Shown here piece after piece: positions 30,763-44,782 of a DNA stretch of 64,000 nt. A program made the position numbers and the translations under genes. The stretch comes from Bacteroidia bacterium. Lineage in GTDB: Bacteria; Bacteroidota; Bacteroidia; B-17B0; Aurantibacillaceae. Positions within the stretch are counted from its first letter, which is position 1. The number at the start of each line of letters is the position of its first letter. The stretch lies in the NCBI GenBank assembly GCA_016787785.1, contig JAEUTO010000011.1, positions 62,001 to 126,000 of the forward strand. The letters run 5' to 3'. The notes beneath the pieces were generated by a model. The model ran no database searches. It saw only the letters and a program-made list of their open reading frames with translations, and was not told the DNA's origin.

Positions 30763-33684
30763 CTAAAATTTATAACTTATAGATAAGGCATAAGTAGAGC
30801 CATTTTGAACAGTTCTGATGATGTCATCTTTTGTTTTGTTCAAACGGGTGTCTTTATCGTTATAATCTTTTTTGTTATAGAAATACTGTATCTGTGTTTT
30901 TGCTAAGATATCACGTGCGGTAAAACGTACCTCTAATTTATTCTTTAAAAAACTTTTAGAGGCTTGTAGATCAACAACTGTTCTTCCGCTTTCCCAGATA
31001 TCCAACTGCGATCCGTAATTACCAACAACAGCAATACGCTGACCGACCCTGTTAACAATACCACTTACACTAAATCCATTCACATTATCAACATAAGAGA
31101 TACCTGCATTTAAAAGATAAGGCGATTGTCCTTGTAATGTTCTGCTATTTGGTGCTTCTGCAGGTTTTGAGGTTTGTTTTGAAACATCTACTGTAGATTT
31201 TATGTAAGCAAAATTGCTGAAAAGCGTTAGGTTATTTAATATTTTTCCTATTAAGCTGGTATCGTTTTTTATAAAGGTTCCTAAGATAATGCGGTACTCT
31301 AATTCAAAACCTTTGCAACTTGCTTTGTCTGAATTCACGTAAGAAATTTCGTTTGCGTTTGTTCTAGCAAACGATTCAATAGGATTTAAGAAGTCTTTGT
31401 AAAATAATGAAGCTGAAAATAATTGTCCTCTACCCGGATAGATCTCGTAACGCAGATCGTAATTGGTGATCTTTGCACGTTGTAATGTATCATTACCGCT
31501 GGTAAAAAATAAAGTTGTAAAATCATAAAAACCAAACGGCGCTATTTCCCTAAACTCCGGGCGATTTAATGTTTGCGAATAACTTAAACGTATATTTTGT
31601 TTATCGTTTGGCGAGAAGATCAGATTTGCAGAAGGCAACAGATCAACAACGGTTGTATCTTTTGTAATTTCTTTTTTATTGATCACGTACAACACATCAG
31701 GATAAATTAGTTTTTGGTTATACGCTTCTACCCTTGCTCCTAAAACAGCTCTGAACCATGTTTTATATTTTACATCGGTCATTAAAAAACCGGCCGTTAA
31801 ATTAGAAGAAGCTTTGTATGAATCCTGCGGGTGCGTTCCTTCTGTAATTTTAAATCCTCCTTTATTGGGCGCTATCAATCCCATATTCTGATTTGTGAAG
31901 ATCTGGCTTTGATCTAAAAACAATAAACTATCGGTAAATGCAATTGGAAACCCTGAACCATACATAGTAAAGCCAAACTGGCGCGCAGTAAAAACACGCG
32001 AACGTTGTTGCACTTGCCCACCGGTTTTAATTTCAAAACTAAAATCAGGCGATACTTTAAAATTACGCGAGATATCTAATTTGGCACTTTTAATATTTTC
32101 TGTTAGTCGCGACCAGAACATGTATCCGCCATAATCATTACCCACACTGCTTGGCGAAATAATTGCCTGGTAAGTTGTATCGTATGGATTTGGTTCGTTC
32201 GGATCAGAAATATATTTTAGTCTGCCGTATGTATTTCTTCTTAAATTCGGAATGTCGCGTTTAACACCACTGTAAGATCCAACCCAGTTTATTTTTAATT
32301 TTATTTTCGGAATTAAATGTTCGCCTATTAACTGCGTTGATTTAATTTGATTAGACGTGAACCAGTACGCATTGGTCTTAGACATGGTAGGGTTTGCATC
32401 GTTTAAATTACCATCACCTGTTCTTATTATTGTTCTGTCGTCTGAATTAATGCTAAACAAATTTTTTGAACTGATAGAATTGTTTTCGTTTAATTTACAG
32501 CTAAGATTCAACAAACCACCCGCCAGTATTTGTGTTGAATAATTATCATCCACAAAAACCGCATCCAACTGAGATGGCTCAGCAGGATCAATATTATTCG
32601 AAAAAGAATTACGCACTGCCTTTAAAAAAGAATTTGTTTTGTTGTAGCTTACAGATGCGATTATCCCAAGGAAATCTTTTTCTTTTAATTTTATATTGTA
32701 CCCTGTAGAAAGCTGGAAAGACGTATTAGGTGAATATTTTTTTGTGTAAGTACCCCAGTCATTTTCGGGTAAAGATTTAGCTAAAGCTGCCTGTTCATTT
32801 TTAATGTATGGAAAATTTTCGATCTCTGGAATTTGGTTTGGCATGGCCCTTGTTCCATCATCAATGCCTAACCAGTCTTTTTTGCCACCTTTATAATAGA
32901 TCTGTTCTTTACCTGTGGTTATTGTGTTGTAACCACCACTTACCGAAACAGCGAAAAAATTCTTTTCAGGAATGCTCTTTGTACTAATGTCAATAATACC
33001 TCCTGCAAATTCACCCGGCATATCGGCACGTGCCGTTTTTGTGATCACTAAATTATCTAACATGTTGCTGGGGAAAATATCAAAGGCAAACGCTTTTCTA
33101 TCACTCTCAGAACTTGGCAAAGGTGCCCCGTTCAAATAGGCGGCATTATAACGCTCGTTCAAACCACGCACAACAACAAACCTATTATCTTGTATACTGG
33201 CACCACTCACACGTTTTAACACATCAGATGTATTTTTATCGGGTGTACGCTTAATGGTTTCAGCGCTTATACCATCGCTCACACTGGCGTTATTTTTTTG
33301 TTGAAGAACCAAAGCGGTATTATTTTCTTTATTAAGGGTAACCACCACCTCTACTTCGTTAAGGTCGGCAGAAGAAGAAGGATCTAATAAAATACTAATG
33401 TCTGTTGGCTCTCCCTCTTTTACCTCAACACCGGGAATTTTTTTTGAGGTGTAAGAAATATAGCTGATTATAAGGGTAACTTTACCAACCGGAACATTGT
33501 TAATAGCGAATTTACCGTCAAAATCGGCGCTAGCACCTTTTCCTGTCCCTTCAACCAGGGCAGTGGCTCCAGGCAAGGTTTCGCCGGTTTTTGCGTCTAA
33601 AATAGTGCCCGAGATACGGCCGGTTTGACCAAGGCTTATTAATATTGAACAACTTAATAAAACAGTGAGGAATAATTTTTGCAT
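30763..33684 (-). CDS. TonB-dependent outer-membrane receptor
   Basis: 973 aa. Signal peptide at 1-19, then a carboxypeptidase-regulatory-like domain (GRISGTILDAKTGETLPGATALVEGTGKGASADFDGKFAI, about 22-100). A plug domain follows (NASVSDGISAETIKRTPDKNTSDVLKRVSGASIQDNRFVVVRGLNERYNA, about 130-240) and then a 22-strand barrel ending in the C-terminal aromatic S-Y-K-F. It uses the TonB complex to import a large or scarce ligand, which I cannot identify; it lacks a SusD partner, so it is not a canonical SusC. Neighbours are the co-directional T9SS protein and a divergent PhoB-like regulator. Confidence 0.93.
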   Translation of the reverse strand: MQKLFLTVLLSCSILISLGQTGRISGTILDAKTGETLPGATALVEGTGKGASADFDGKFAINNVPVGKVTLIISYISYTSKKIPGVEVKEGEPTDISILLDPSSSADLNEVEVVVTLNKENNTALVLQQKNNASVSDGISAETIKRTPDKNTSDVLKRVSGASIQDNRFVVVRGLNERYNAAYLNGAPLPSSESDRKAFAFDIFPSNMLDNLVITKTARADMPGEFAGGIIDISTKSIPEKNFFAVSVSGGYNTITTGKEQIYYKGGKKDWLGIDDGTRAMPNQIPEIENFPYIKNEQAALAKSLPENDWGTYTKKYSPNTSFQLSTGYNIKLKEKDFLGIIASVSYNKTNSFLKAVRNSFSNNIDPAEPSQLDAVFVDDNYSTQILAGGLLNLSCKLNENNSISSKNLFSINSDDRTIIRTGDGNLNDANPTMSKTNAYWFTSNQIKSTQLIGEHLIPKIKLKINWVGSYSGVKRDIPNLRRNTYGRLKYISDPNEPNPYDTTYQAIISPSSVGNDYGGYMFWSRLTENIKSAKLDISRNFKVSPDFSFEIKTGGQVQQRSRVFTARQFGFTMYGSGFPIAFTDSLLFLDQSQIFTNQNMGLIAPNKGGFKITEGTHPQDSYKASSNLTAGFLMTDVKYKTWFRAVLGARVEAYNQKLIYPDVLYVINKKEITKDTTVVDLLPSANLIFSPNDKQNIRLSYSQTLNRPEFREIAPFGFYDFTTLFFTSGNDTLQRAKITNYDLRYEIYPGRGQLFSASLFYKDFLNPIESFARTNANEISYVNSDKASCKGFELEYRIILGTFIKNDTSLIGKILNNLTLFSNFAYIKSTVDVSKQTSKPAEAPNSRTLQGQSPYLLNAGISYVDNVNGFSVSGIVNRVGQRIAVVGNYGSQLDIWESGRTVVDLQASKSFLKNKLEVRFTARDILAKTQIQYFYNKKDYNDKDTRLNKTKDDIIRTVQNGSTYALSISYKF

Positions 33685-33852: not shown

Positions 33853-34536
33853 ATGAGCAATTCTAATTTTAAAATACTGTTGGTTGATGACGAGCCGGAT
33901 ATTGTAGAGTTTTTAGGTTACAATTTAAAAAAAGAAGGCTACACCATACTCACCGCCAATAACGGCAAAGACGCTGTAGAGATCGCCAAAAAAGAAATAC
34001 CTCACTTAATAGTACTCGACGTAATGATGCCTGATATGGATGGTATAGAAACCTGCCGTGAATTACGTGAACAAAAAAATTTACAGGAAGTATTAATTGC
34101 TTTTTTAACTGCCCGCAGCGAAGATTATACGCAAATTGCAGGTTTTGAGGTTGGCGCTGATGATTATATCACAAAACCAATTAAGCCCCGCGTTTTTATT
34201 AGCCGCGTAAAAGCGTTATTACGCAGGTTACAGGCAAATAATATTTCAGAGTCGGTTATAGAATTTGGTAACATTCGTATTGATAAAGAAAAACACGTTG
34301 TTTATAAAGGTCAGGAAGAAATTGCTTTACCTAAAAAAGAATTTAAATTATTCTCATTACTTAGCAGCAAACCCGGTAAAGTTTTTACCCGCGAATTTAT
34401 TTTAGATACCGTTTGGGGCGACGAAGTAGTTGTAGGTGATAGAACCATTGATGTACACATTCGTAAACTTCGCGAAAAAATTGGCGACGATTATTTTAAG
34501 ACCGTAAAAGGCGTTGGCTATAAATTTGAGTTTTAA
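33853..34536 (+). CDS. PhoB/OmpR-type response regulator
   Basis: 227 aa with the start chosen at MSNSNFKILLVDDEP; an in-frame ATG at 33805 adds an unlikely 16 residues. The receiver has D12-D13, phosphoacceptor D56 (LIVLDVMMPDMDG), FLTARS and DYITKPI. The winged helix reads LPKKEFKLFSLL...GDRTIDVHIRKLREKIG...VKGVGYKFEF. No kinase gene is adjacent, so its partner is encoded elsewhere. It is a likely regulator of the divergent TonB receptor and the T9SS protein behind it. Confidence 0.94.
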   Translation: MSNSNFKILLVDDEPDIVEFLGYNLKKEGYTILTANNGKDAVEIAKKEIPHLIVLDVMMPDMDGIETCRELREQKNLQEVLIAFLTARSEDYTQIAGFEVGADDYITKPIKPRVFISRVKALLRRLQANNISESVIEFGNIRIDKEKHVVYKGQEEIALPKKEFKLFSLLSSKPGKVFTREFILDTVWGDEVVVGDRTIDVHIRKLREKIGDDYFKTVKGVGYKFEF

Positions 34537-34666
34537 TTCCTCTTGTTTTAACGGCAAAAATCGTACTTTTTTTGTGAATTGACGGGGCTTTAAGGCCTAT
34601 AAGGCACAAAAACACTTTTTCATTATTTCTTCTCGGAAAATATAATTAGATTAGTAAATCGAACTA

Positions 34667-36343
34667 ATTAAAAAATATCTGTTTCCGGGAATTATTTCCC
34701 TGTTTTTTTCTTTACAAACAATTGCACAGCAAAGTGTTATTGATTCGCTTAAACTTTTATTAACCACTGCCAAACACGATACCACGCGCTGTGCTCTCCT
34801 TAATTCCATTATAGAATCAGAAAGCGACGATACTGTTTGGCCCGAGTATAACGACCAGCTTTTTGCACTCGCCAAAAAAAATGCAGCTAGTTCAAATCCC
34901 ACACTAAAAAAATTGTATTTAACGCATATGGCCAATGCCCTTAACAATATGGGCTACCTGGCCGAGCAACAAGGCGATCTGCCTTTGGCTTTGGACTACG
35001 ATCACCGTAGTTTAAAGATCCAGGAACAAATAAACAATAAAAAAGGCATTGCCACTTCTTTAAATAATATAGGTGTTATTTATTATAATCAAGGTCAAAT
35101 TCCAAAAGCATTAAAATACTATCACAAAAGTTTAAGGATCCAGGAAGAAATGCGTGACAGTGTTGGTGTTACAACTACCCTAACAAACATTGGGCTTATA
35201 TATGGCAAACAAGGCGAAATTACAAAAGCCATGAGCTACTTTAATAAAAGTTTAACAATACAGGAAGCTATAAAAGATAAATTGGGTGTTGCCAACACGC
35301 TTACACACATTGCCACTATTTTTGAGAATCAAGGCGATATTCCAAAAGCGTTGGAGTATTATCACAAAAATTTGAAGGTTCAGGAAGAACTTCGCGATAA
35401 AGGAGGAATTGCGAATTCTTTGATGAACATTGGAATAGTTTATAAAAAGCAAGATGATCTTAGCAAAGCCCTGATCTATTTTATGAAAAGTCTTAAGTTA
35501 AATCAAGAGTTAAAAGATCGCTCAGGCATTACACGCAATATAAATAACATCGGCGTTATTTATTTTCAACAAAAAAATCCAAAAAAAGCTTTAGAGTATT
35601 ATAATCAAAACTTAAAGATACAGGAAGAGATGTTTGATAAAGCTGGCATGGCCTATTCCTTTAATAATATGGGCACGGCCTACTCCGAACTAAAACAATT
35701 TGATAAGGCCTTAGAGTGTTTTTTAGCAAGTTTAAAAATCAGAGAAGAAACAAAAGATAAAAGAGGCGTATCAACTGCCTTAAACAATTTATCTATGCTC
35801 ATGAGCCAAACAGGAAAAATAAATTTGGCACTCGACTATGGTAAACGCAGCTTACAACTTGCTAAAGAGTTAGAGTTTCCGGAAAATATTCGTCTGGCAG
35901 AACATAGCCTTGCACAAGCCTATGAAGTAGAAAAAAATTATAGGGAAGCCTTTGCGCATTACAAACAATACATTATTTACCGTGATAGTATTAATAACGA
36001 AACAACACGCAAGGCCAGTATTAAAAGTCAGCTTAAGTATGATTATGAAAAAAAGGAAGCCGTAATAAACGAGCAGCAGGAAAAAGAAAGAGCAATTGCG
36101 GCAGAAAAAGACGGATTTCAAAAAATAGTGATCGCATCGGTTGTTTTGGGTTTGGTGTTGGTAATTATCTTTGCTGCATTTGTGTTTCGTAGTTTAAGCA
36201 TTACACGTAAGCAAAAAATAATTATTGAAGTAAAGCAAAAAGAAATACTGGATAGTATAAATTATGCCAGGCGCATACAACTATCGCTTTTGCCACAAGA
36301 AAAGTATATTGCTAAACACCTGCAAAAAATAAATAAAAATTGA
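34667..36343 (+). CDS. TPR-array unit 1: signal peptide, TPRs, membrane segment, coil
   Basis: About 558 codons. The frame opens after a stop at 34655-34657, and the signal peptide (KKYLFPGIISLFFSLQTIAQ) begins directly after an ATT at 34667; no ATG/GTG/TTG precedes it. The first in-frame ATG (34919 region) would remove the signal peptide and the conserved opening V-I-D-S-L-K-L-L-L-T-T-A-K-H-D-T-T-R-C. Either ATT is used as start or the gene has lost its start. About eight 40-residue TPRs follow (GDIPKALEYYHKNLKVQEELRDK), then a charged coil, a membrane segment (IASVVLGLVLVIIFAAFVF) and the end LDSINYARRIQLSLLPQEKYIAKHL. The SpoIIE domain of typical relatives is absent. Confidence 0.7.
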   Translation: MKKYLFPGIISLFFSLQTIAQQSVIDSLKLLLTTAKHDTTRCALLNSIIESESDDTVWPEYNDQLFALAKKNAASSNPTLKKLYLTHMANALNNMGYLAEQQGDLPLALDYDHRSLKIQEQINNKKGIATSLNNIGVIYYNQGQIPKALKYYHKSLRIQEEMRDSVGVTTTLTNIGLIYGKQGEITKAMSYFNKSLTIQEAIKDKLGVANTLTHIATIFENQGDIPKALEYYHKNLKVQEELRDKGGIANSLMNIGIVYKKQDDLSKALIYFMKSLKLNQELKDRSGITRNINNIGVIYFQQKNPKKALEYYNQNLKIQEEMFDKAGMAYSFNNMGTAYSELKQFDKALECFLASLKIREETKDKRGVSTALNNLSMLMSQTGKINLALDYGKRSLQLAKELEFPENIRLAEHSLAQAYEVEKNYREAFAHYKQYIIYRDSINNETTRKASIKSQLKYDYEKKEAVINEQQEKERAIAAEKDGFQKIVIASVVLGLVLVIIFAAFVFRSLSITRKQKIIIEVKQKEILDSINYARRIQLSLLPQEKYIAKHLQKINKN

Positions 36344-36494
36344 AACACATAGAAAACATAGTTAAATGTGTTAGATCGATCCTCAATTCTTACAAAAGAA
36401 CACATAGCCAATTCTGCCTTCGGCAGAATTATCTGTGTAACTTTATGCACAAAGTTGTTCCCTATGAAACTATGTGCTCTATGTGGTTAAAAAA
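36343..36494. repeat. Dispersed CTATGTGGTTAA-type repeat between units 1 and 2
   Basis: A spacer of degenerate ACACATAG/CTATGTG repeats with a perfect internal hairpin AATTCTGCC-ttc-GGCAGAATT (36410-36430). It ends CTCTATGTGGTTAA, like the ends of the repeats at 289-380 and 12880-12917. The ATG inside this end (36481) is the likely start codon of the next gene. Confidence 0.7.
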
Positions 36495-39400
36495 AATTGC
36501 GTTAATACTGTTTCTTTTTCCCTTTTTCTTTTCTGCTCAAAACACCAGTAGTGAGTTAAGTCGAACCATAGACTCGCTTAAACTTGCTCTTAAAAAAGCC
36601 GATCATGATACCGTACGCTGCTCTATTTTAATGACGCTTGCAGAAACGGCCAGCGAAGAAGAATGGCCACTTTTTAATGAACAATTAAAAAATATTGCCG
36701 AAAAAAATATTGCAAAAAATGACAGAAATAAAAAGATTTTTTTAAAATACCTTGGTGTTGGATTAAATAATATGGGTGTACTTAACGACATTCGCGGCAA
36801 CAGCCAGTTAGCTTTAGAATATTATCTTAAAAGCATAAAGCTATTTGAAGAGCTAGGCGATAAAAATGCTACTGCAGGTGCGTTAAACAACGTTGGTTTT
36901 ATTTATAATAACCAGGGCGATATTGAAAAAGCACTAGAATGGTTTCACAAGAGCTTAAAAAATTATGAAGCACTAAACGATAAAAAAGGTATAGCAACCT
37001 CTTTACTTAACATTGGCACAATATATGAAGATCAGAATGATCTGGAAAAAGCTCTTGAATATTATCGCAATAGTTTAAATACACTGTTAACAACAGGAGA
37101 TAAAAAAAGTATAGCCTACGCCTTAAATAACATTGGCGCCACCTACACTAAACAACACAAAATTAGCGAGGCACTCGAATATCTTCAGCGAAGTTTAAAA
37201 TTAAGAGAGGAAATTAATGATAAGAATGGAATAGCTACTTCCTTAAATAATATTGGTACTGCATATAGTACCGCCGGAAATGATGAGGAAGCCCTTAATT
37301 ACAACAACGAAGGCTTAAAAATAAGAGAAGCAGTTGGCGATAAGCAAGGCATGGCCGCATCTTTAAACAACTCCGCCCGCCTGCTATACAAATTAGGTAA
37401 GTCTGAACAAGCTATTTCGTTTGCACAAAAAAGTTTATTGATATCAAACGAGCTGGGCTTTCCTGACAATATAAAAAATGCAGCGCTTTGCTTAAAAAAA
37501 ATTTATACGGCGCAAAAAAAATATAAAGAGGCCTACGAAATGTTTGAACTCGAAATTAAAATGAGTGACAGCATAAATAATCAGGAAACACAAAAAGCTG
37601 CCATTAAAAAACAAATGCAGTACAGCTATGAGAAAAAAGAAATAGAAATAAAAGCCGAACAGGAAAAAAAAGACGCAATTGTTAAAGAAGAATTAAAACA
37701 AAAAGAAAAAGAACGCAATTATTTTATTGTGGGGTTTATTTTGGTTGGAATTCTGGCCTTGTTTATTTTTAGGAGCTTTAAACAAAAACAAAAAGCAAAT
37801 AAAATTATTTTAGAACAAAAGCAATTGGTAGACGAAAAGCAAAAAGAAATTCTGGATTCCATTCATTACGCAAAAAGAATTCAAACTGCATTATTGCCAA
37901 GTGAAAAGTATATTCAAAAAAATTTAAAGGGCCTACATAAAAATGCACTTTCGTTTATCTTCTGTCTTTTGTCCCTTATAACTTTTTCAGGTGAAATCGA
38001 TTCACTAAAACACGCTCTTAAAAAAGCGACACACGATACAACGCGCTGCAAAATTTTAATTGCCATGGTAGAGGCGGAAAATAGCGACGAACTTTGGCAC
38101 GCATATAATACGCAGCTAAAAACACTTGCCGAAAAAAATATTGCCGCTGGCGGACCCCTCAAAAAAATATATTTGAACTACCTTTCTACTGCCCATAATA
38201 ATATCGGCGTTGGGGCAACCTACTATGGAAATAATAATCTCGCGCTTGAAAATTTCCAAAAGAGTTTAGAAATAAGTAAAGCGCTTGGTGATAAAAAAGG
38301 CATAACAGAATCGTTAAACAATATTGGCTATGTATATGATGTACAGGGCAACATTCCCATGGCACTTGAGTATTTTCATCAATCTTTAAAGCTTCATGAA
38401 GAACTGAAAAACGATCACGGCATTGCCAACACCCTAAATAATATTGCTACCATTTATGGAAGACAAGGTGAAAAAGATAAAGCACTAGAGTACCATTACA
38501 AAAGCCTGCGAACACGGGAACGGATAAACGACAAAGCCGGCATAGCCCAATCGTTAAATAATATAGGCGCTCTTTACGATAAGGATGGTGGAACAAGCGC
38601 GCTCGAATATTATCAAAAGAGTTTAGCCATTTACATAGAGCTTGGCGATAACCTTGGGATAGCTAATGCATCTAACAACATTGGCTCTATTTATCACCGA
38701 CAAGGAAACAGTTCTTTAGCCTTAACCTATTTCATTAAAAGCTTAAAGATACATGACGAACTTGGCAATAAAAGCGGGTCGGCTTTTACACTAAATAATA
38801 TTGCATCCTTATTCTATAAAATTAAAAGTTTTGATCAGGCATTATCTTATGCCCAAAAGGGCATGGTGGTTGCCAGAGAGGTTGGTTATCCCGAAAGGAT
38901 AAAAAATTCGGCCGATATTTTAAAGAGAATATTCCTTCAGCAAAAAAAATACAAAGAAGCTTTTGAAATGTATGAACTGGAGATCAAAATGCGCGATAGT
39001 CTTAACAACCAGGAAACGCAAAAAGCCGCTGTTAAAAAACAGCTGCAATACGATTACGAGAAAAAAGAACTGGAAATAAAAGCAAATCAGGATAAAAAAG
39101 ACGCCATAGCAAAGGCCGAACTAAAGCAAAAAGAAAACGAACGTAATTATTTTATTGTCGGTTTTGGTTTAGTATTGGCGCTAGCGTTATTTATTTTACG
39201 TGGCTACAAACAAAAACAAAAAGCCAACGCAATTATTCTTCAACAGAAAGATTTGGTTGACGAAAAACAAAAAGAAATTTTAGATTCCATTCATTATGCC
39301 AAACGAATACAAACTGCTTTATTGCCAAGCGAACGATATATAGATAAAAGTTTGAAGCAATTAAACAATAAAACTCTTTTATCATTGATCTTTTGTCTTT

Positions 39401-42400
39401 TATCATTTTGCTCATTTTCGCAAAGTATGGATTCACTAAAACTTGCACTAAAAAACGCTAAACACGATACAACACGCTGTAATGTTCTAAATGCAATGAT
39501 CGAAGCTGAGGGTGATGATAATATTTGGCCCCGGTACAATGAACAATTAAAACAACTTGCCGAAAAGAACATTACCAATAATTCAGAGTCAAAAAATGTT
39601 TTCTTAAAACACCTTGCGTCAACCTTGAATAACATCGGCTATCTGGCCAATCAACAGGGTGATATTACCAGGGCATTGGAATATTATAATAAGAGCCTAA
39701 AAATTGAAGAAGAGTTAGGGGATAAAGATGGAATAGCGCTCTCTTTAAACAACATTGGTGCTATTTATAAAAATCAAGGCAATATCCCAAAAGCATTAGA
39801 TTATTATGATAAAAGTTTAAAGATCCAGGAAATTATTGGCAATAAAAAAGGAATAGCAATTTCTTTAAATAACATTGGGGTTATTTATAAAAACCAGGGC
39901 GGCATCCCTAAGGCATTAGAGTATTTTCACAAGAGTTTGAAGATCAGAGAAGAGATTGGAGATAAACGCGGAATATCAACTTCCTTAATCAACATTGGAG
40001 ATATTTATCAAAACCAGGGCGACCTGCCAAATGCATTAGCGTATTTTAAAAAAAGCTTAAAGATCAGGGAAGAAACAGGAGATAAAAAAGGAAAAGCAGA
40101 TGCATTAAGCCACGTAGGTCTTATTTATAAAAAGCAGGGCAACATCCCCAAAGCTCTGGAGTATTATAACAGCAGTTTAAAGATCCACGAGGAGCTTGGC
40201 GAAAAAAAAGGAATAGCGTATTCTTTAAACAACATTGGGGTTATTTATGATAATCACAACGATATTCCCAAAGCTTTAGAATTTTATCAGAAGAGCTTTA
40301 AGATCCATGAAGAAATTGGAGATAAAACGGGAATATCGCACTCTTTAAACAGCATCGCTATACTTACATTAAGGAAAGGACAAATTAAGGAGGCGCTTGT
40401 AATTGCCGGCAAAGGAATGCAAGTGGCTAAAGAGTTGGGCTTTCCTGAACTAATTAAAAGTTCGGCAAACACGCTTAAATCGATCTTTCAAAAATTAAAT
40501 AATTACAAAGGTGCATTTGAAATGTTTGAGTTGGAAATTAAAATGAGAGACAGTATTAATAACCTGGAAACTCAAAAAGCCAGTGTCAAAAAACAAATGC
40601 AATATGAATACGAGAAAAAAGAATTACAAACAAAAGCAGAGCAGGATAAAAAAGATACCATTGCAAAAGCCGAATTAAAACAAAAAGAAAACGAGCGTAA
40701 TTATTTTATAGCAGGTTTTGGTTTAGTATTGGTGTTGGCACTATTTATTTTACGCGGATACAAACAAAAACAAAAAGCCAATGCAATTATTTTACATCAA
40801 AAACATTTAGTAGACGAAAAACAAAAAGAGATCTTAGATTCTATTCATTATGCTAAACGCATACAGTCGGCTCTGTTGCCGAGTGAAAAGTATATTGATA
40901 AAAGTTTGAAGCAACTCAATAAAACGGTTTTGTCTTGTATCTTATGCTTAATGTCTTTTTTCTCATTCTCTCAAAATGTTGATTCGTTAAAACTATTACT
41001 TAAAAATGCCAAACACGATACAACACGCTGTACTATTTTATCCAAACTATCAGAGTTGGCAGCGGAAGAGGAGTGCCCTGTTTTTAACGCACAATTAGAA
41101 TTAATAGCCCGTGATCATCTCGCAAGGTCTGAGGCAGATAAAAATTTTTATCTCAAACAGCTAGGCATTTCGTTAGTGAATAATGGTTATTTTTCTCATC
41201 AAGCAGGTAATTACAAAAAAGCAATTAGCGATTTTGAAAAAGGGCTTGAGATTCAAAAAAAATTACACGACACTGCCGGCATTATTTTGTCGTTAACCAA
41301 CATCGGCGTACTTTATCAGGATATTGGCGACCCGTTAAAATCATTGGATGTTTTTAACGACCAGTTAAAATATAACGCTGCTATAAAAGATAGGAAAGGC
41401 ATAGCAAATTCTCTTTTTAATATCGGCTCAGCCTATTACGATGAAGGCCTTCCGGCTAAAGCGGTTGAGTTTTACAACAAAAGTTTAAAAATTGAGGAGG
41501 AGATCGGTAATAAAGATGGCATTGCTTTTTGTTTAAACGATATTGCTTTGGTATATCAAAATCAAGGAGATATTCCTAAAGCCTTAGAATATCATTTTAG
41601 GTGTTTAAAGATCAGAGAGAACTTAAACACTAAGCCCGAAATAGCATATTCGCTTAATAATATTGGTTTAATTTATAAAGAGCAGCTCGAAACAGATAAG
41701 GCCCTGGCATACTATAATAAGTGTTTAAAAATTATGACAGAAATTGGCGATCAACCGGGCGTTGGTTTGGCGTCAAATAATATAGGGCTCGTTTTTATTG
41801 ACAGGAAGGAGTTTAACGTTGCGCTTAGCTACTTTACAAAAAGTTTAAATATCTATCAAAAGTTAGAGAACCCAAAAGGCCTTGCAAATGCTTTAAAAAA
41901 TATTGGCTTGGTATTAAAGTTTTTAGGAAAATATGACGAAGCAATTGAGAATTATTATAAAAGTTTAAAAATACAGCGAGAAATATTTGATGAAAAAGGA
42001 AAGACCAGAACTTTAATTGAATTGGCAAACCTTAAGTTAAAGCAAGATCTTCCTGATCAGGCGCTCGGCTTTGCTTCTGAGGCCATTATTGCTTCGAAAA
42101 AATTAGGTTTCCCATTGGAAATAAGGAATTCGGCAAATGTATTAAAAACTATATTCCAAAAACAAAATAAGTATAAAGAGGCATTTGAAATGTATGAGCT
42201 GGAAATTAAAATGCACGACAGCATTAATAACCAGGAAACGCAAAAAGCTACAGTTAAAAAACAAATGCAATATGAATTCGAGAAAAAAGAATTAGAAACA
42301 AAAGCAGAACAGGATAAAAAAGACGCCATTGCAAAAGCCGAATTAAAACAAAAAGAAAACGAACGTAATTATTTTATTGCCGGTTTTGGTTTAGTATTGG

Positions 42401-42597
42401 TGCTGGCGTTATTTATTTTACGCGGATACAAACAAAAACAAAAAGCCAATGCTATTATTCTGCAACAAAAACATTTGGTTGATGAAAAACAAAAAGAGAT
42501 CTTGGATTCCATTCATTACGCAAAACGCATACAAACTGCCTTAATACCCTCCGACAAATACATAGAAAAAGAATTAAAGAAATTACGCGAACGTTAG
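36481..42597 (+). CDS. Giant fused TPR protein containing array units 2-5
   Basis: 2,038 aa from the ATG at 36481 (MWLKKIALILFLFPFFFSAQ, a good signal peptide). The frame also runs open upstream to 36340, through repeat sequence. Four complete units follow without a stop: each has TPRs, a membrane segment (e.g. YFIVGFILVGILALFIF), a KQKQKANAIILQQKHLVDEKQ coil and ...YAKRIQTALLPSEKYI. A new hydrophobic SP-like segment then begins (about 37944, 39372 and 40924; e.g. LSLIFCLLSFCSFSQ). Internal units have no in-frame start codon. The topology alternates sensibly: each SP-like segment would return the chain to the periplasm. SpoIIE domains are missing. Intact fusion, polyprotein processing and decayed separate genes are the alternatives. 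Confidence 0.75.
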   Translation: MWLKKIALILFLFPFFFSAQNTSSELSRTIDSLKLALKKADHDTVRCSILMTLAETASEEEWPLFNEQLKNIAEKNIAKNDRNKKIFLKYLGVGLNNMGVLNDIRGNSQLALEYYLKSIKLFEELGDKNATAGALNNVGFIYNNQGDIEKALEWFHKSLKNYEALNDKKGIATSLLNIGTIYEDQNDLEKALEYYRNSLNTLLTTGDKKSIAYALNNIGATYTKQHKISEALEYLQRSLKLREEINDKNGIATSLNNIGTAYSTAGNDEEALNYNNEGLKIREAVGDKQGMAASLNNSARLLYKLGKSEQAISFAQKSLLISNELGFPDNIKNAALCLKKIYTAQKKYKEAYEMFELEIKMSDSINNQETQKAAIKKQMQYSYEKKEIEIKAEQEKKDAIVKEELKQKEKERNYFIVGFILVGILALFIFRSFKQKQKANKIILEQKQLVDEKQKEILDSIHYAKRIQTALLPSEKYIQKNLKGLHKNALSFIFCLLSLITFSGEIDSLKHALKKATHDTTRCKILIAMVEAENSDELWHAYNTQLKTLAEKNIAAGGPLKKIYLNYLSTAHNNIGVGATYYGNNNLALENFQKSLEISKALGDKKGITESLNNIGYVYDVQGNIPMALEYFHQSLKLHEELKNDHGIANTLNNIATIYGRQGEKDKALEYHYKSLRTRERINDKAGIAQSLNNIGALYDKDGGTSALEYYQKSLAIYIELGDNLGIANASNNIGSIYHRQGNSSLALTYFIKSLKIHDELGNKSGSAFTLNNIASLFYKIKSFDQALSYAQKGMVVAREVGYPERIKNSADILKRIFLQQKKYKEAFEMYELEIKMRDSLNNQETQKAAVKKQLQYDYEKKELEIKANQDKKDAIAKAELKQKENERNYFIVGFGLVLALALFILRGYKQKQKANAIILQQKDLVDEKQKEILDSIHYAKRIQTALLPSERYIDKSLKQLNNKTLLSLIFCLLSFCSFSQSMDSLKLALKNAKHDTTRCNVLNAMIEAEGDDNIWPRYNEQLKQLAEKNITNNSESKNVFLKHLASTLNNIGYLANQQGDITRALEYYNKSLKIEEELGDKDGIALSLNNIGAIYKNQGNIPKALDYYDKSLKIQEIIGNKKGIAISLNNIGVIYKNQGGIPKALEYFHKSLKIREEIGDKRGISTSLINIGDIYQNQGDLPNALAYFKKSLKIREETGDKKGKADALSHVGLIYKKQGNIPKALEYYNSSLKIHEELGEKKGIAYSLNNIGVIYDNHNDIPKALEFYQKSFKIHEEIGDKTGISHSLNSIAILTLRKGQIKEALVIAGKGMQVAKELGFPELIKSSANTLKSIFQKLNNYKGAFEMFELEIKMRDSINNLETQKASVKKQMQYEYEKKELQTKAEQDKKDTIAKAELKQKENERNYFIAGFGLVLVLALFILRGYKQKQKANAIILHQKHLVDEKQKEILDSIHYAKRIQSALLPSEKYIDKSLKQLNKTVLSCILCLMSFFSFSQNVDSLKLLLKNAKHDTTRCTILSKLSELAAEEECPVFNAQLELIARDHLARSEADKNFYLKQLGISLVNNGYFSHQAGNYKKAISDFEKGLEIQKKLHDTAGIILSLTNIGVLYQDIGDPLKSLDVFNDQLKYNAAIKDRKGIANSLFNIGSAYYDEGLPAKAVEFYNKSLKIEEEIGNKDGIAFCLNDIALVYQNQGDIPKALEYHFRCLKIRENLNTKPEIAYSLNNIGLIYKEQLETDKALAYYNKCLKIMTEIGDQPGVGLASNNIGLVFIDRKEFNVALSYFTKSLNIYQKLENPKGLANALKNIGLVLKFLGKYDEAIENYYKSLKIQREIFDEKGKTRTLIELANLKLKQDLPDQALGFASEAIIASKKLGFPLEIRNSANVLKTIFQKQNKYKEAFEMYELEIKMHDSINNQETQKATVKKQMQYEFEKKELETKAEQDKKDAIAKAELKQKENERNYFIAGFGLVLVLALFILRGYKQKQKANAIILQQKHLVDEKQKEILDSIHYAKRIQTALIPSDKYIEKELKKLRER

Positions 42598-44152: not shown

Positions 44153-44782
44153 CTAAAGCAAATTTAATTCTTTCAAAAAATCGCCGATCTCAGCGTTCTT
44201 TGGAAGCAAAAATGCGCTTATGCCACATTCGCCGGCACCTTTTACATGTTGAATAGAGTCATCTATGAAAACAGTTTCCTCAGGCTTTAAACCGTTTGCT
44301 TCTAAAACAAATTCAAAGATATCTTTATTTGGTTTACGCATATTCATTCGGCAGGAATAGTAAACTTCATCAAAATAGTCGTTAAAATTCTTTACGCCGT
44401 GTTTAAGATAGAGCTCGTGTTCAAATGCAGCAATGTGCGGTTCATTGGTATTACTTAATAAAAAGGTATTGTAATTTTGCTTCATACTCACCAAAACGTC
44501 CAGTCTTTTTTCCGGAACGTCTAATAACATGGCATTCCAGGCTCTCAGTAATTCGTGATCGGGGCCATCGTAGCGAATTTGCCTTCTTAATTCATAAAAA
44601 AATTCTTCGGGAGAAATCTGGCCTTTGTCGAAGCTGTCGAACAGCTCGCTTTGAGCAGCTTGCGTGTAAATAGCCTCAAATGGCATATAAGTGAGTTTAT
44701 TAAATTCGGAGATCGTCCGGTTAACATCAAGATTAATGATCACACCGCCAAGGTCGAAAATGATATTTTTTATATGTTGCAT
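44153..44782 (-). CDS. HAD family hydrolase (HAD-IA, YihX-like)
   Basis: 209 aa. Motif I I-F-D-L-G-G-V-I-I-N (nucleophile Asp, with Gly at the usual +2 Asp as in YihX-like sugar-phosphate phosphatases), motif II F-L-L-S-N-T-N, and motif IV E-T-V-F-I-D-D-S near the end. The helical cap lies between motifs I and II. It probably dephosphorylates a sugar phosphate or similar metabolite. It converges with unit 6 with a 1-nt gap, and is divergent from the tRNA gene. Confidence 0.9.
   Translation of the reverse strand: MQHIKNIIFDLGGVIINLDVNRTISEFNKLTYMPFEAIYTQAAQSELFDSFDKGQISPEEFFYELRRQIRYDGPDHELLRAWNAMLLDVPEKRLDVLVSMKQNYNTFLLSNTNEPHIAAFEHELYLKHGVKNFNDYFDEVYYSCRMNMRKPNKDIFEFVLEANGLKPEETVFIDDSIQHVKGAGECGISAFLLPKNAEIGDFLKELNLL

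Follow-up and report, generated by a model that had tools for sequence, protein, structure and literature searches.

Four tandem TPR membrane-protein units in one conserved reading frame of a Bacteroidia bacterium: a candidate polyprotein cut at internal signal peptides

A 64,000-nucleotide stretch of a Bacteroidia bacterium (GenBank assembly GCA_016787785.1, contig JAEUTO010000011.1, positions 62,001 to 126,000; hereafter the window) holds an open reading frame (ORF) in which four tandem units, each built of tetratricopeptide repeats (TPRs), a transmembrane (TM) helix and a coil, are joined without a stop codon. The fusion is genuine and under purifying selection, and we favour with moderate confidence the reading that the ORF encodes a polyprotein that would be cut at internal signal peptides. 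The fused frame, its conservation, the selection on it and the repeat-like cores of the internal signals are directly established. To our knowledge, cellular polyproteins have rarely been described in bacteria; none of this kind is among the matches listed from the open-licence literature, which is weak evidence of absence.

The frame spans 36340-42597 on the forward strand, with 2,085 codons open from a TTG. Frame, anatomy and hydropathy agree with the original prediction of four complete units in about 2,038 residues, and neither a frameshift nor a stop occurs across the 2,038 codons, so that several products' worth of sequence lies in one unbroken frame. Every unit comprises a signal-like segment, a mature start of the form DSLK..DT.R, a run of TPRs, a membrane helix, a charged coil and a DSIHYAKRIQ motif (C-motif). 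In the hydropathy profile of the fused protein, the membrane helices span residues 415-433, 890-908, 1408-1426 and 1964-1982; segments of weaker hydrophobicity lie at the start of the protein and near residues 488, 965 and 1482. With a separate unit on each side (units 0 and 5) the array counts six units, arranged as 1 + 4 fused + 1. The internal signal-like segments, here called seams, divide the ORF as follows.

36481..42597, forward: fused four-unit ORF, 2,038 amino acids from the ATG at 36481, no stop
36481..37944, forward: unit 1, with its own ATG signal peptide, TPRs, TM helix at 37723-37779, coil and C-motif at 37855
37945..37989, forward: seam 1, internal signal-like segment ALSFIFCLLSLITFS, predicted cut before GEIDSLK, apparent heptamer relic (p 0.037)
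37990..39372, forward: unit 2, TM helix at 39148-39204, C-motif at 39283; this is unit A, orthologous in five species (support 99/100)
39373..39420, forward: seam 2, internal signal-like segment TLLSLIFCLLSFCSFS, predicted cut before QSMDSLK, apparent heptamer relic (p 0.01)
39421..40923, forward: unit 3, TM helix at 40702-40758, C-motif at 40837
40924..40971, forward: seam 3, internal signal-like segment TVLSCILCLMSFFSFS, predicted cut before QNVDSLK, apparent heptamer relic (p 0.02)
40972..42597, forward: unit 4, TM helix at 42370-42426, C-motif at 42505, TAG end

The fusion recurs in related genomes, which we denote by G numbers (G000 is the window's own genome) and their loci by L numbers. 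A seam profile, whose alignment was built from nine of 13 fused seams (leaving out one of G011 and those of G006, G045 and G021), was searched against 40 genomes of the genus with up to 150 candidates scored per genome. Six of them gave stop-free matches over 64-67 of the 67 positions: six seams in G011, three in G000, and one each in G020, G006, G045 and G021. Across the window and 42 loci, 61 unit-unit junctions were recognised; the other 72 of 133 C-motifs had no neighbour recognised downstream, because they end an array, belong to SpoIIE units or have a neighbour that the pattern missed, and were dropped. Thirteen junctions, spread over six genomes, are fused; 12 are in frame with a stop and 36 lie in another frame, a rough split of the non-fused class given that a few rows look mis-framed (among them the L027 row and one L112 row).

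Synteny ties these fusions to one place. The window array sits between a response regulator and a HAD-type gene, and the same neighbours occur in the same order in G018, G020, G006 and G011; in G045 the regulator and the fusion are linked, with the HAD gene on another contig, and in G053 the contigs break within the array. Related genomes, in which the original prediction had proposed to look, carry fused junctions here too: two-unit fusions stand at this locus in four other species (G020, 1017 codons; G006, 968; G045, 974; G011, 967; all stop to stop), three of them at the orthologous unit-A seam. In the unit tree, unit A is orthologous in G000, G018, G020, G006 and G045 (support 99/100), and the seam that follows it, seam 2 of the window, is fused in four of these five species, namely in the window's genome, G020, G006 and G045. 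The tree held three non-unit rows with very long branches (G053c50 u0, u1 and u4), and its bootstrap had not settled.

Some apparent fusions were discarded. Several of the large open-frame figures among the own-genome matches are not single frames, the 1,751-residue ORF in L030 is not several joined units but a single long protein that has one C-motif only, and a figure of 1,009 codons in G164 resolves into separate units.

The proportions of synonymous (pS) and nonsynonymous (pN) differences show that the frame is maintained. Between the G006 and G045 fusions, pS is 0.689 and pN 0.164 over 968 aligned codons, and in the 30-codon seam stretch the values are 0.605 and 0.148. Likewise, pN is below pS in all 57 seam pairs listed among the 12 heptamer-type fused seams (nine pairs within G011). 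A pN far below a near-saturated pS means that the fused frame has been kept, including the stretch from unit end to signal core.

The seams themselves resemble signal peptides. A lysine-rich tail precedes each hydrophobic segment and a small residue followed by Q or G ends it; in the window the ends are TFS|G, SFS|Q and SFS|Q, in line with the FSG, FSQ and FSQ of the original prediction. Across the 13 fused seams the residue at -1 is always S or A, and in 12 of them S, A or T stands at -3, with codons for the cut motif that differ among species. In separate units the small residue and Q are mostly present too, but -3 is often Leu. The seam segments are also less hydrophobic than the TM helices (peak hydrophobicity, KD19, 1.5-1.6 versus 2.2-2.5). 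Less hydrophobic cores and a small-x-small motif would suit internal signal peptides, and as read from the sequence the pattern resembles that of cleavable ones.

A simple repeat offers a source for these cores. The heptamer array (GTCTTTT)n translates as VFCLLSF in all three frames, and 12 of the 13 fused seams match it over 45 bases at 58-73%, more than synonymous re-coding of the peptide would give (uncorrected p 0.003-0.037); the G021 seam has no match beyond re-coding (0.49, p 0.23). Of 44 seams sorted as separate, two fall below p 0.05, and one of these is an element-type G053 seam that was mis-sorted. The hydrophobic cores at the 12 seams look like relics of the heptamer. Since the repeat unit has seven bases and is frame-neutral, a seam made from it cannot easily close the frame. 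The seams hold degenerate copies only, not a pure long tandem repeat of frame-shifting copy number as in phase-variable genes. Runs of four copies with at most two mismatches occur in six of the 40 genus genomes, some being the seams themselves; reverse-pattern controls gave no matches in those six genomes, one in G001 and three in G003. Outside the arrays, three of eight heptamer sites examined in the window's own genome lie in signal peptides of unrelated genes (by their sequences a LysM protein, a lipoprotein and an amidase-like protein), and of eight such sites in relatives three lie in signal peptides and two in membrane-like segments inside frames; several of all these sites are orthologous to one another. 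It seems, then, that heptamer runs serve as raw material from which signal and membrane segments are made. Unrelated secreted proteins whose signal peptides have heptamer cores were seen in L062, L063, L068, L139, L142 and L144, and heptamer-made membrane-like segments inside frames in L141 and L143. A different repeat-like stretch, GTCACCCTGAGCGGAGTCGA, which we take to be an interspersed repeat, forms an in-frame part of the signal peptide in three G011 units (L033:2751, 11464 and 14659).

How the seams arose was originally explained differently. The string AATAAAAC, shared by two junctions, had suggested a lost ATGAAAAC (ATG) start converted into a fusion. Separate units, however, end in ...LNK-S-stop, spelled AATAAAAGTTAA in L033, and AATAAA therefore belongs to the unit's own C-terminus, as its ordinary Asn-Lys. 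We reject the lost-start model; the fused architecture that it was meant to explain stands, on independent assemblies, synteny and selection. The seam is best described as a normal unit C-terminus joined to an apparently repeat-derived signal core.

For the polyprotein reading we infer Sec re-entry, cleavage, pairing and function as follows. Ribosomes would translate all four units in one pass, and Sec would thread every TPR domain to the periplasm while every coil remained cytoplasmic. The internal signal segment that follows would re-enter Sec, the positively charged tail of the unit before it acting as n-region, and signal peptidase I would cut after small-x-small (SFS|Q, TFS|G). The products would be four single-pass proteins, the same as those from separate unit genes, in a constant 1:1:1:1 ratio. 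The signal cores would have arisen from (GTCTTTT)n, which is open and hydrophobic in any frame entered, and the conserved coil would probably pair the units with one another and with phosphatase-bearing paralogues, as co-sensors or decoys. That fused and split genes would yield the same mature proteins fits the coexistence of both forms and the exchange of seams.

Several observations weigh against this picture. The hydrophobic run is 16 residues long at the seams and 17 in the TM helices, so length does not separate them, and both an uncut chain and internal initiation gain weight from this. The absence of in-frame starts at the internal segments, as originally claimed, holds for ATG and GTG ahead of the cores in the window, but the second and third junctions (J2 and J3) each carry a TTG in frame before the core, 78 and 75 nucleotides from the DSL motif. 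Further TTGs stand upstream of these or within the cores, an ATG lies inside the J3 core, and another at J2 lies past the predicted cut. Moreover, five of 66 units examined lack a canonical start within 25 codons of the signal core, a count that did not flag unit 0, whose missing start was read from the sequence. Separate genes at the junctions in close relatives had been named as counter-evidence, which for the most part is not what is seen: four further species are fused at this locus, but the unit-A seam of G018 and the seams of G053 are split, and the G020 (fused) versus G018 (split) seam is little constrained (pS 0.456, pN 0.329). Unit B varies between species, and what is conserved is the seam with unit A, not a fixed four-unit protein. 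Twelve of the fused seams are of one origin, and the independent events are few, about two. When the seam profile was run on 395 genomes sampled from the class (12 listed as of the genus), scoring no more than 15 candidates per genome, stop-free seams of full length appeared in the window's genome alone, as its own three, and the C6, C7 and C10 stretches examined in its own genome hold separate genes and no other fused array.

The strongest alternative, which we nonetheless consider unlikely, is a real but uncut fusion in which the seams stay membrane helices and one multi-pass chain tethers an array of four TPR domains. Its topology alternates sensibly, and the nearly equal run lengths suit it. 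It accounts less well for the lower hydrophobicity of the seam segments, for a small-x-small|Q/G motif kept by differing codons, and for a seam that exists in both fused and split forms in sister species.

Less probable still is a mostly separate synthesis of the units, started inside the seams at TTG or rarer codons, with the open frame incidental. The TTG codons ahead of the J2 and J3 cores speak for it; in some separate units TTG is the sole canonical start near the core, and the five units mentioned have none there. The G006 seam, however, lacks ATG, GTG and TTG anywhere from C-motif to DSL, the only TTGs of the G011 and G020 seams stand far upstream or else at or within the core, and as the upstream unit has no stop its ribosomes must read through in any case.

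Decay into a pseudogene, with start and stop codons lost without consequence, could draw on the many paralogues and on a unit number and order that vary between species, yet it is very improbable beside 2,038 codons free of stops and frameshifts and a pN that stays far under pS in fused frames and seams alike; a sequencing or assembly artefact, for which only the oddity of the ORF speaks, is scarcely credible when the same seam type stands in four other assemblies (G011, G020, G006 and G045) and a different fused seam in G021. Recurrence in the genus, synteny and selection lead us to reject both.

What the units do is suggested by their relatives. The fused protein matches PF13424 over 13 stretches (E 6.7e-181), and Pfam (E up to 1e-5) returns TPR-type families and a few weak coil-like ones; neither the fused protein nor units 0 and 5 gave a match to the SpoIIE domain PF07228 at this threshold. 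Two longer relatives (L034:18156-20312 and L037:13038-15227) have that domain after the same C-motif, so the units resemble sensor phosphatases truncated ahead of the enzyme. TPRs, coil and the DSIHYAKRIQ-type motif are common to the fused units and the Bacteroidota TPR-TM-SpoIIE phosphatases, whose full-length members occur within the same arrays (L034, L037); the fused units, in contrast, end about 30 residues past the motif, have no SpoIIE domain and stand four in one frame. A structural model of unit 3 (39361-40920; 21 aligned units) shows TPR-like helix pairs followed by a single long helix at 402-504 (mean predicted local distance difference test score, pLDDT, 82.3; predicted template modelling score, pTM, 0.67), and its best Protein Data Bank matches are TPR domains such as that of LGN. 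Most invariant columns among the 21 units compared lie in the juxtamembrane coil, the TM helix and the C-motif, which suggests that the conserved coil may still pair with partners, perhaps phosphatase-bearing paralogues. The function is probably SpoIIE-phosphatase-related co-sensing. The family is large, as shown by 135 stretches of the own genome that match the fused protein. Most genes in a second tandem TPR array there (L026, G000:C6:277000-296500) have about 680-710 codons and so match the SpoIIE-bearing relatives in length; every gene has a separate frame, and several overlap or abut stop to stop.

The features on either side of the fused ORF complete the array.

33853..34536, forward: OmpR/PhoB-type response regulator, left syntenic border of the array
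34658..36343 (stop to stop), forward: unit 0, separate TPR-TM-coil gene whose signal peptide frame lacks ATG, GTG and TTG
36341..36492 (approximate ends), no strand assigned: palindromic repeat element overlapping the stop of unit 0; copies in the genome share the end CTATGTGGTTAA
42598..44151, forward: unit 5, separate gene with its ATG immediately after the stop of unit 4
44153..44782, reverse: presumed HAD-type phosphatase-like gene, right border of the array

The palindromic element bears on how fused and split states relate. About 150 bp long, with the terminus CTATGTGGTTAA and further copies in the genome, it supplies the first codons of unit 1, ATG-TGG-TTA-AAA, that is, the ATG and the Trp-Leu-Lys of the signal peptide. 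Similar elements interrupt heptamer-type seams once in G018 and three times in G053. Three of the four element-type seams match the heptamer; that of window unit 1 does not (p 0.26). The split pair of G018 and the fused pair of G020 are sisters (100/100 for each unit), and their unit-A seam is fused in G020 and divided by a palindromic element in G018. Parsimony favours a fused state first and a later split in G018, on a weakly supported species tree that left out the TonB-type neighbour (51-59% like close relatives). Exchange of the seam by recombination is equally possible, because G053 has very similar element seams in another clade and the supports of the species tree are weak. The sister units G011b_u0 and G053c67_u2 (100/99) carry different seams, and seams therefore also move between units. 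We tentatively suggest a wider scheme, in which a frame-proof heptamer would give rise to signal peptides and weld gene borders into signal-peptidase-cut polyproteins, a palindromic mobile element carrying a stop and a start would split them again, and fusion and operon would be interchangeable states of the array.

Among the neighbours, the product of the regulator gene has PhoB-type families as its top NCBIfam matches, all under their cut-offs, and is 92-98% identical to regulators beside the array in five other genomes. The HAD-type gene is 84-89% identical to its counterparts in four genomes, G018, G020, G006 and G011; it runs opposite to the array in the window and on the array's strand in those four, so that the right border has undergone a small inversion. 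The first unit of the array keeps its signal peptide (IELIKKYL...) in three species (34658-34700 in the window, L034:9992 and L037:9998); there a stop is followed by ATC GAA CTA ATT AAR AAA in a frame without ATG, GTG or TTG, and a rare AUU or AUC start is possible. The mechanical ORF list puts the start of unit 0 at 34913, downstream of this signal. To the left, a gene at 30763-33684, TonB-receptor-like by its sequence, shares only 51-59% identity with the corresponding genes of seven close relatives, compared with 78-99% for the other neighbours; the outgroup G017 has a partial match (71% over 505 residues), and the gene has possibly been replaced in the window genome. Large genes that appear by eye to be DNA methylase- or restriction-like lie within the array locus of two species (L037:7112-9856 and L105:4807-6522).

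Known systems offer parallels to the proposed processing. Flavivirus-type polyproteins are cut by signal peptidase and, as predicted for the fused ORF, alternate signal and stop-transfer segments with cuts after small residues; the ORF is, in contrast, a cellular bacterial gene of tandem paralogous units with no evidence of a dedicated protease. FbcH of Bradyrhizobium is reportedly a cytochrome b/c1 precursor processed by signal peptidase, in which one bacterial frame gives two membrane proteins through an internal signal sequence, as proposed here. It is said to join two different subunits, whereas here tandem paralogues carry apparently repeat-derived signals and exist in fused and split versions, with cleavage predicted. 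Two papers on bacterial heptanucleotide repeats describe abundant 7-bp direct repeats (PMC4692102, PMC4679880), as found here; compared with these, the degenerate (GTCTTTT)n appears to have been recruited as coding sequence for hydrophobic signal and TM segments. A repeat origin of signal cores would be a concrete route from simple repeats to signal peptides, and a conserved polyprotein with fused and split seams in sister species would make signal-peptidase processing of polyproteins in bacteria directly testable.

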